From Bacteroides sp. (GTDB taxonomy: Bacteria; Bacteroidota; Bacteroidia; Bacteroidales; Muribaculaceae), in contig JAAVDM010000032.1 of assembly GCA_014801815.1 (NCBI GenBank), positions 1 through 64,000 of the forward strand: 64,000 nt of DNA. Reading direction: 5' to 3'. The position numbers and the translations under genes are program-made. Under the pieces are notes generated by a model. The model saw only the letters and a list, made by a program, of their open reading frames with translations. It was not told the origin of the DNA and made no database searches. Shown piece by piece: positions 22,065 to 25,814 of the stretch (the first letter of the stretch is position 1; the number at the start of each line of letters is the position of its first letter).

Positions 22065-22114
22065 AAAAAAACATACCTCCTGTGTCCGTCGACGGACACA
22101 GGAAGTATGTTTTT
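22065..22114. terminator. Bidirectional terminator
   Basis: Arms 22071-22090 and 22091-22110 are complementary with one mismatch and no unpaired loop beyond the palindromic centre GTCGAC. They are flanked by A6 and T4. It separates the frameshifted gene from the convergent dehydrogenase. Confidence 0.85.
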
Positions 22115-23112: not shown

Positions 23113-23712
23113 TCACGATGACAGCCGCACAGGCACTTTAAGCAGACGATAAGCATCTTCCGGCAAAACAACCTTAACAGAAGTATCCGGAATATTCCAT
23201 ATTTTCAGAAAAGGACGCATTTCATTTTTAAGTGCATCCTGCAACACACTCATAGACTGCTTATCAATATAATGTCCCGGTGACACTGTAAAGTTAATAA
23301 TCAGAATAAAGCGTAGACGATCAAAATTAAGATGCTTATCCGGCAATTGTATAGCCTTAAGACGTTCTGAACCATGCCGTCCTTGAGATAAGGACAAGAG
23401 AATTGAAAACGAGTCAATGAACTTCTTGGAAATATTACGAAGGAAAGTGGTATAATTATCAAATGCAGTCCAAGTACTCGGTATAGATTTACCGTTTAAC
23501 CTCAAATCCTTCACATTACCACCGGGGCCTCTTGGCGCTGACATTTTAGCTTCTATGAAGCAATGTCTCTTATCAATAACACTCACACATTCACATGCCA
23601 TATTATTAGATGTACTTGAGCAACCATTTGTGACTAACGGATCCTTTTCAATATGAAAGCAATTCCCATCTGCGAACTCAAACAACAGACCTGATTCCTG
23701 AAATACCGTCAT
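23113..23712 (-). CDS. Unknown protein partner of an AAA15-type ATPase, possible PD-(D/E)xK nuclease
   Basis: This 199-residue protein has no signal peptide or membrane segment. Residues 41-56 contain Glu41, Asp47 and the triad Glu54-Ala-Lys56 (CFIEAK), set in alternating hydrophobic residues. This resembles the beta-strand core of PD-(D/E)xK nucleases, but I cannot confirm the fold. The C-terminal half has a hydrophobic strand RFILIINFTVS and is otherwise unremarkable. Its ATG overlaps the stop of the upstream ATPase by four bases, so the two proteins are almost certainly made together. Base composition is AT-richer than neighbouring housekeeping genes. Best guess: effector of a two-gene defence module. 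Confidence 0.6.
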   Translation of the reverse strand: MTVFQESGLLFEFADGNCFHIEKDPLVTNGCSSTSNNMACECVSVIDKRHCFIEAKMSAPRGPGGNVKDLRLNGKSIPSTWTAFDNYTTFLRNISKKFIDSFSILLSLSQGRHGSERLKAIQLPDKHLNFDRLRFILIINFTVSPGHYIDKQSMSVLQDALKNEMRPFLKIWNIPDTSVKVVLPEDAYRLLKVPVRLSS

Positions 23713-24716
23713 AGTTCAAGTTCCTCTTCATAAAGTTTAATTGACTGATCGATAATAGGATTATCCGGCATACCATCTTTCAGGTCGCTTACCTGATTAC
23801 CACCCTCAAAATCAAACGAAATCACAGGTATGGATACATTATGAGACTGTGCCAACAAATACAGTTTCTTAATAACAAAATAGGAATGGCTTGCTATAAA
23901 GAACTGCATACCATAGCGGCTAAGCACACCTACGATATCAAGAAGTTCAATCAACACACTGGGATGAAGCCCCGACTCCGGTTCATCAATAAATACTATA
24001 GAATCGCGTGTCAGAAAATGATTTCCTATGAGAGTATCAAATATACCTATTTTCTTAGTGCCTTCTGAGGTAATATTTATATCAAATGTATTTTTACCCT
24101 GTACATATTGCCAGAGCTGTTTCTCTTTAGAATATACTACTCGCCCACCTAAAGCCGACTCTAACCGACTTCTCGCCTCAAGAAAAGGCCGAGCAATTTT
24201 ACCTTGTGTCGGTGGAGTAAGCGCTGTCACTAAATCATAATACGTTTCATCAAAACCAAACTCCATACGTACCTCACGATTGTTTTTTATTACATCAAGC
24301 AGTGAAAGCACTTCTTTAGCAGGTATGAAGATGGAGTTTGAAGTTCGTGATTTCAAATAATTGTCCAAACGCACAATTCTCTTTTCTGTATCTGATCCAA
24401 AGCTGAAACTAAAGCTATTACCATTGGCCTCAGTCATTTCAAACTGAAACGGACCGCAATCGGGACGATGAACCAACTGTCCGAGCCTGTCAACCTGAAA
24501 CGTCCAGTAAAGTTTATTAGCCAAAATTTCCTTGTCAGAAGACGGATTCTTACCTCTTCCGGTAATTTCAACTGTACGTTGTACACAATACAGAAGTTTA
24601 AGTAAAAGAGTTTTACCTGACCTGTTGGGCCCTATCAGAAGATTAATCGGACCACAATCTTTTACTTTAATATGCGAAACGGGACCGAAATTTTTTAAAT
24701 CTACGGATTGTATCAT
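23709..24716 (-). CDS. AAA15/AAA21-type (ABC-like, OLD-related) ATPase
   Basis: The 335-residue product is an SMC/RecF-like ATPase of the kind found in OLD, PARIS, Septu and retron-linked defence genes. It starts IQSVDLKNFGPVSHIKV, with Walker A GPNRSGKT near 29-36, an ABC signature-like SEGTKKIG near 225, Walker B IVFIDEPESGLHP near 248, and the H-loop FFIASHSYF near 277. The insertion between Walker A and signature is short and lacks a long coiled coil, and there is no C-terminal TOPRIM. It is coupled by ATGA to the small protein at 23113. Upstream lies a MITE-like repeat. The ATPase class is certain; the defence role is inferred. Confidence 0.82.
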   Translation of the reverse strand: MIQSVDLKNFGPVSHIKVKDCGPINLLIGPNRSGKTLLLKLLYCVQRTVEITGRGKNPSSDKEILANKLYWTFQVDRLGQLVHRPDCGPFQFEMTEANGNSFSFSFGSDTEKRIVRLDNYLKSRTSNSIFIPAKEVLSLLDVIKNNREVRMEFGFDETYYDLVTALTPPTQGKIARPFLEARSRLESALGGRVVYSKEKQLWQYVQGKNTFDINITSEGTKKIGIFDTLIGNHFLTRDSIVFIDEPESGLHPSVLIELLDIVGVLSRYGMQFFIASHSYFVIKKLYLLAQSHNVSIPVISFDFEGGNQVSDLKDGMPDNPIIDQSIKLYEEELEL

Positions 24717-24748
24717 ACCTCTTTAGTACTTAATGGGATTTTATAAAT

Positions 24749-24940
24749 AGTTCTTAAAAATTAAACGATACATGTTTTCAGGTAAAGTTGTGGAATCTTA
24801 AACGATAAAACTTGTTATTTATAGCCGCTTCAAGCTTGTGTCTCAGTCGAATACCCCAGTATTCTACTTTCCGCCGTGTCCGAATCATCTCAAAAATAAC
24901 TGTGTTTTTATATGTTCATTAATTTTTAAGAGCTACTTAA
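24749..24940. repeat. MITE-like repeat element, copy A
   Basis: Inverted ends lie at 24749-24764 (AGTTCTTAAAAATTAA) and 24919-24940 (TTAATTTTTAAGAGCTACTT and onward). The element has no coding frame. About 64 bases at its left side match copy B (43180-43243) at about 80 percent, and its last 37 bases match copy B exactly. Copy A carries about 84 extra bases in the middle. It lies between the ATPase and rubrerythrin. The remaining spacer to 25126 shows nothing further that I can name. Confidence 0.6.
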
Positions 24941-25126
24941 CGGCAAATATAAGCAATAAATTCCGAAAGGCAAAATTCAAAAATCCATAGGTGCAGCAAA
25001 ACCTTTATCAGTACTCTAACGTTAAAGTAATGTGTCTTTCTAACAATGGAAATGCGGATTGAACATCAACCGACAGATGTTATGAAAGACTGAAATTACG
25101 TTTAACCTTTAAAATTATTAATAACT

Positions 25127-25731: not shown

Positions 25732-25814
25732 ATACCTGAAAATACCTTATAGAACAGTAAGTCCCGAAAGCAATGCTTTCGGGACTTACTGTTCTATAAG
25801 GTATTTTCAGGTAT
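25732..25814 (+). terminator. Terminator, 40-bp perfect inverted repeat
   Basis: Arms 25732-25771 and 25775-25814 are perfectly complementary with only a 3-base loop. It begins five bases after the rubrerythrin stop. The next gene is also on the plus strand, so it ends a single-gene unit. Confidence 0.85.

Follow-up and report, generated by a model that had tools for sequence, protein, structure and literature searches.

HEC-02 genes at a Bacteroides locus: an ABC ATPase and a putative PD-(D/E)xK nuclease forming a candidate anti-phage cassette

A 64,000-nucleotide stretch of Bacteroides sp. DNA (assembly GCA_014801815.1, contig JAAVDM010000032.1, positions 1 to 64,000; hereafter the window) carries two small overlapping genes on its minus strand whose products match a candidate defence system, HEC-02, in the PADLOC collection. 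Gene A (23709..24716, minus strand) encodes HEC-02A, a 335-residue ABC ATPase of the OLD/PtuA type. Gene B (23113..23712, minus strand) encodes HEC-02B, a 199-residue putative PD-(D/E)xK nuclease with the predicted core E41-x12-E54-x-K56. The stop codon of A and the start codon of B share an ATGA (23709..23712, minus strand), and both open reading frames were recovered as an earlier sequence-only reading of this DNA had described them.

The two genes and their products

The overlap between A and B is preserved among close relatives. B follows A at a spacing of -4 in all six loci found by a scan of genome contigs, one of them a Fibrobacter assembly, and in all six copies within the genus; four copies are common to the two sets, giving eight distinct loci with the window included, and the recurrence of this spacing shows that the overlap is no accident. 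The G+C content of A (0.386) and B (0.392) lies well below that of the window (0.481), bearing out the AT-richness remarked on earlier, and their third-position G+C values are the third and fourth lowest among the 43 open reading frames of at least 150 residues in the window. The nearest annotated neighbours in a Pfam scan of the window are genes for a 2-hydroxyacid dehydrogenase and a rubrerythrin. This copy of the pair thus stands among ordinary genes, outside any Hma or other defence operon and not near BREX genes.

Gene A encodes an ATPase with matches to the Pfam families AAA_21 (E 4e-17) and AAA_15 (E 8e-15). Recognizable in its sequence are a Walker A motif (G29-T36), Q74, a signature-like segment (S217-K222), a Walker B motif with E245, and H277. 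Its predicted model follows the fold of PtuA, the Septu ATPase, along the whole protein, with neither a coiled coil nor a TOPRIM domain, in keeping with the OLD/AAA15-like ATPase lacking both that had been proposed; TOPRIM likewise had no Pfam match in A or B. Fold neighbours include the heads of Rad50 and SMC proteins, and distant matches to RecF and Rad50 were also found. A PADLOC search of both proteins, suggested in the sequence-only reading, gave a far closer assignment: A matches HEC-02A (PDLC04214) at E 2.3e-133 over positions 2-335 of 338, with only partial and far poorer matches to the models of AriA (weak, E 1.2e-20), PD-T4-4_A (E 4.7e-16), AbiLi, and PtuA.

The product of gene B matches HEC-02B (PDLC04221) at E 6.7e-26 over positions 1-163 of 171, and in PADLOC it matches HEC-02B models only (E <= 10), with no match to AriB or PD-T4-4_B at that threshold. 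At 199 residues it is longer than the 171-position model and carries an insertion behind the ExK motif. Nothing in Pfam (HNH included) or NCBIfam was matched at E <= 1, and no PHROG at E <= 0.01. The partner had been called a protein of unknown family, which holds for Pfam and NCBIfam and fails against the HEC-02B profile. It had also been said to show neither TOPRIM nor HNH, and the Pfam result agrees; both identities were considered for B and rejected on that result. Elsewhere among the PADLOC models, PDLC04145 and PDLC04146 look as though their labels have been swapped, since a partner protein matches the 170-position model, which is named HEC-02A, and the ATPase matches the 344-position one, named HEC-02B.

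Conservation of the putative active site was assessed over 31 distinct pairs, defined by an ATPase open reading frame of more than 280 residues, a partner open reading frame of 140-230 residues, and a gap of -40 to +20. This set also takes in five annotated plasmid pairs and keeps identical partners once (35 pairs before this step). Loci with broken or missing partners lie outside it, an omission that favours conservation; partners recovered later are not included either. Within the set, position 41 is acidic in all 31 partners, being Glu in the window protein and Asp in 16 of the 31; E54 and K97 are invariant (31/31 each), and K56 is present in 30, with Arg in the other. By the strand limits in the predicted model, strands 42-46 and 49-56 form a hairpin whose open end carries E41 and E54/K56. 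The core proposed earlier comprised Glu41, Asp47, Glu54, and Lys56; three of these residues are borne out by their conservation, and Asp47 was rejected as catalytic, column 47 being acidic in just 6 of 31 pairs and D47 lying in the turn of the hairpin. B is best read, from sequence conservation and the model, as a PD-(D/E)xK nuclease with the core E41, E54, and K56, and its nuclease activity is presumed from that motif.

Pairing, distribution, and mobility

Gene A rarely occurs without gene B. Within the genus, A is found in 6 of 111 genomes (profile search, E <= 1e-60) and the identical six carry B (E <= 0.001); among the more complete genomes the pair is present in 3 of 46. In a phylum sample of 395 genomes, A was detected in at least 24 genomes and at 31 places or more (E <= 1e-30), the counts being lower bounds, as at most five candidates per genome were scored. 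The single B model PDLC04221 finds 12 of the 395. The B profile A1 gives many distant partners a weak score or none, and such partners were for this reason identified by position and motif. One of the 31 places had no locus. At 26 of the other 30 the ATPase is followed by a partner with the acid...ExK motif, although among these the partner is frameshifted at one locus (L131) and stands beside a cut ATPase at another (L158). The remaining four comprise two loci with a 73-residue remnant devoid of the core (L137 and L138), one with no partner (L154), and one where A itself is present only as a 92-residue fragment (L152). Two downstream open reading frames that are not partners, encoding a dehydrogenase and a HipA-like protein, were excluded from the partner counts.

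A similar picture emerges elsewhere. Among 72,556 plasmid records A occurs in six (E <= 1e-12), five of which have an adjacent partner and one of which (L059) has none adjoining the ATPase. One further relative (L009) showed no motif-bearing partner downstream, and in another (L010) the partner is apparently split across two frames. In PADLOC, eight of eight partners of relatives match HEC-02 models, and seven of the eight come from beyond the genus. Over the 31 distinct pairs, the pairwise distances of A and those of B are strongly correlated (r = 0.907), a value reached in none of 2000 permutations. A and B form a real unit. By the terms of the sequence-only reading, it would have told against the proposal if homologues of the ATPase normally occurred without the partner; they do not, given the pairing in genus, phylum (26/30 loci), and plasmids together with the correlated distances. 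At L131, L137, and L138 the frame of the ATPase is open while B is frameshifted or reduced to the 73-residue remnant, and at these loci the effector seems to decay first.

The pair is not special to Bacteroidales, with relatives in Fibrobacter, Cyanobacteriota, and Pseudomonadota. Two plasmid relatives lie within BREX loci: on a Polaromonas plasmid the pair sits inside a type 2 system, between pglX and a large gene that is followed by pglZ, and on a Methylomonas plasmid inside a type 1 system, between brxC and pglX. On a Paracoccus plasmid, some 5 kb separate a relative from a type ISP restriction gene. Viral contigs yielded no relative in two scans, and phage records yielded none for B and two for A, one with a motif-bearing partner (L060) and one without (L061).

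Sites of insertion also vary among closer relatives. Judged by the first residues of neighbouring proteins, the five close relatives L048-L052 have differing neighbours, and only L048 and L049 are alike. The site occupied in L049 can be compared with two genomes that lack the pair there (L160 and L161). In both, the flank found beyond A and B in L049 comes within about 100 bp after an FKBP-type gene; L049 has in addition A and B and little else, suggesting that the pair was gained at this site rather than lost. The cassette of L048 is placed about 1.3 kb farther along the region that it has in common with L049. The cassette has moved between sites. A rubrerythrin gene was seen in none of the 29 dehydrogenase loci of relatives (L071-L099), loci that reach at most 1.5 kb past the dehydrogenase gene and in several cases end at a contig edge.

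Several other genes were seen beside relatives of the pair. On the Fibrobacter contig L053 (13825-15850), some 4 kb away from its HEC-02 pair, a second ABC ATPase similar to PD-T4-4_A (E 1.9e-32) precedes a 247-residue open reading frame that has no Pfam or PADLOC match. In L048 (6975-7736) the pair adjoins, on the other strand, a gene whose HNH-domain product shows weak similarity to type IV restriction, and in L052 (1490-2676) genes for a HipA-like kinase and a DUF3037 protein begin 2 bp past gene B.

Upstream of gene A lies an element (24744..24939), some 196 bp long and bounded by terminal inverted repeats of 21 bp, resembling a miniature inverted-repeat transposable element (MITE). It has at least 40 long matches in its own genome at 78-100% identity, counting the window copy, with 40 of 144 candidates scored. 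Beyond it is a match to what we take to be the Bacteroidales promoter consensus, TTTG-N18-20-TAnnTTTG, in the form TTTG-N19-TATATTTG (24944..24974, minus strand). Eight such matches occur in the window against 0.44 expected. In four of five relatives (L048, L049, L050, and L051) the end of the TAnnTTTG (-7) box is separated from the start of the ATPase gene by 22-23 bp, three of the four having the full pattern; L008 lacks the box. In the window the distance from box to start is 227 bp, most of it filled by the 196-bp element, which contains a second TAnnTTTG box of its own without the TTTG. The match at 24944..24974 is likely to be the operon promoter. Since the MITE-like element stands between that match and the ATPase start, filling a gap that is short in relatives, it has probably inserted into the 5' leader rather than marking an edge of the cassette. 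The repeat noted earlier as bordering the pair is a real multi-copy repeat and probably no border.

Two further inverted repeats flank the region. One, just after the rubrerythrin gene (25732-25814), is perfect, with 41-nt arms and a 1-nt spacer, has no other copy in its own genome, and is either a terminator of unusual form or an artefact of assembly. The other (22067-22114), between a small open reading frame and the end of the dehydrogenase gene, consists of two adjoining 24-nt arms, 96% complementary and spacer-free, and is perhaps a terminator between convergent genes.

Proposed function and its alternatives

Defence against phages, proposed in the sequence-only reading for an ATPase-effector pair of this kind, is supported and is the best explanation of the cassette, on the strength of the HEC-02 matches, the PtuA fold, the motif conservation, the strong pairing, the BREX relatives, the patchy presence, and the analogy with WonAB of Vibrio cholerae. 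Six of the seven best structural rows for B, all weak fold matches, are entries for the nuclease Can2 and add to this reading. Family membership, ATPase fold, conservation of E41, E54, and K56, pairing, shared history, differing sites, and BREX relatives are computed results. The pair is probably a two-gene, mobile cassette of HEC-02 type directed against phages, in which, by that analogy, the ATPase would sense infection and release the nuclease, leading to abortive shutdown. The complex, its trigger and target, the cutting of nucleic acid, and the abortive end are inferred, as follows. A, with its PtuA-type fold, would dimerize around ATP and sense infection on the model of WonA. B, docked on A, would be restrained or stabilized by it until A is triggered. 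Once released, B would cut host or phage nucleic acid and stop the infection, most likely through an abortive shutdown that probably costs the cell. A more specific and tentative proposal is that B proteins of HEC-02 are PD-(D/E)xK enzymes turned RNases which, released from the ATPase, cut tRNA or rRNA and halt translation, the cassette acting on its own here and as a back-up layer in BREX.

PD-(D/E)xK nucleases are mostly DNases, and the alternative with the most in its favour is restriction-type defence, with A recognizing incoming or unusual DNA and B cutting that DNA while the host is spared. The Rad50 and SMC heads among the fold neighbours of A, which clamp DNA, fit this alternative, as does the occurrence of relatives within BREX loci. 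It is nonetheless doubtful, given that no methyltransferase or specificity gene adjoins the window pair in the Pfam scan and that WonAB, the closest characterized case, left genomic DNA intact and inhibited translation instead (PMC12137116).

Two small, overlapping, mobile genes with relatives on five plasmids might also be expected of a toxin-antitoxin or plasmid maintenance module, in which B would be a toxin neutralized by A and the pair retained by addiction rather than for defence. AAA_21 is annotated in Pfam as a putative AbiEii toxin, and the persistence of A without an intact B at L137 and L138 is also allowed by addiction with A as antitoxin. The related WonB, however, is toxic only together with WonA, which speaks against simple neutralization (PMC12137116), and pairs embedded in BREX operons fit addiction poorly; this alternative is unlikely.

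Slightly less likely still is that B is a degenerate PD-(D/E)xK domain that does not cut, binding nucleotides or nucleic acid and only regulating A. Inactive restriction-fold domains paired with NTPases have been described as sensors (PMC12839542), and the fold comparisons of B alone are weak, a point that counts against a nuclease and for this alternative. A sequence search of solved structures with the B profile A1 gave two chance-level matches (E 1.4 and 1.8), the wider profile A5 gave none, and an hhalign comparison of B with a YhcG-type nuclease was not significant. The acid at position 41 and E54 in 31/31 pairs and K56 in 30/31 are, in contrast, the pattern expected from catalysis and not from mere binding. 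No housekeeping fold, the outcome that the sequence-only reading had set against a defence function, was found in B. A RecF/Rad50-like housekeeping repair pair, to which the distant matches of A might point, is very improbable in view of the far better fit of the HEC-02 profiles, the lack of any Pfam or NCBIfam family for B, and the restriction of the pair to 6 of 111 genus genomes (3 of 46 more complete ones) at differing sites.

Relation to known defence systems

The two genes most likely make up HEC-02, a catalogued but little-studied candidate anti-virus system, and the window copy is one more member of that family. It reportedly comes from a 2024 preprint by Payne et al., and HEC candidates are said to have been found through their embedding in Hma or other defence operons. 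The window proteins resemble HEC-02 in their nearly full-length matches and in the adjacent A-B gene order; they differ in standing outside a defence operon, a feature of the discovery and not of the proteins, and relatives do occur embedded in BREX loci. A search of main texts for HEC-02 as a whole word gave one paper, on cellulose, and for HEC-02A and HEC-02B none, preprints and supplementary tables being outside that search. Excerpts of other papers mention HEC-06 (PMC12988326), HEC-05 and HEC-06 (PMC11411939), and HEC-04 (PMC12111858). The pair had been thought possibly a different type of system. On profile matches it is instead a member of the HEC-02 family, and the type is not new, HEC-02 being already in the PADLOC collection and dyads of an ABC ATPase with a PD-(D/E)xK protein being in print (PMC12137116; PMC12839542).

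Among better-known systems the resemblance is partial. PtuB, the partner of PtuA in Septu, is an HNH nuclease; A shares the fold of PtuA, including that of retron PtuA effectors, whereas B lacks HNH and has a PD-(D/E)xK-like core. PARIS is likewise a two-gene system of ABC ATPase and nuclease, and A partly and weakly matches AriA, but AriB is a TOPRIM nuclease (PMC12839542) and B is not. PD-T4-4 is similar only in the partial match of A to PD-T4-4_A, with no counterpart match of B to PD-T4-4_B.

WonAB is the closest characterized case in the literature excerpted here, alike in having an OLD-type ABC ATPase followed by a small protein described as of PD-(D/E)xK fold (PMC12137116). Both catalytic sites are required, as WonA ATPase mutants and WonB PD-(D/E)xK mutants (K71A) lose protection, and WonB is lost if the WonA ATPase is inactive (PMC12137116). 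By its mutant numbering WonA is the longer ATPase, with E300 and H333 presumably the counterparts of E245 and H277 in A. Its authors link WonAB to 'OLD-ABC ATPase + Novel REase' operons and to PD-T4-4, and envisage a wider family in which ABC ATPases act as sensors and nucleases as effectors (PMC12137116). A survey of BREX and related systems counts pairings of OLD-ABC ATPases with non-TOPRIM nucleases of the HNH, PD-(D/E)XK, or PIN type in 594 taxa, and proposes a back-up effector layer (PMC12839542); relatives of the window pair likewise lie inside BREX types 1 and 2, unlike the window copy itself. As a small HEC-02 module with a clear active-site prediction, the pair links a PADLOC candidate, the WonAB-like class of ABC ATPase and nuclease, and the auxiliary nucleases inside BREX, so far listed apart, and it bears on whether one shared ATPase sensor switches very different nucleases alike.
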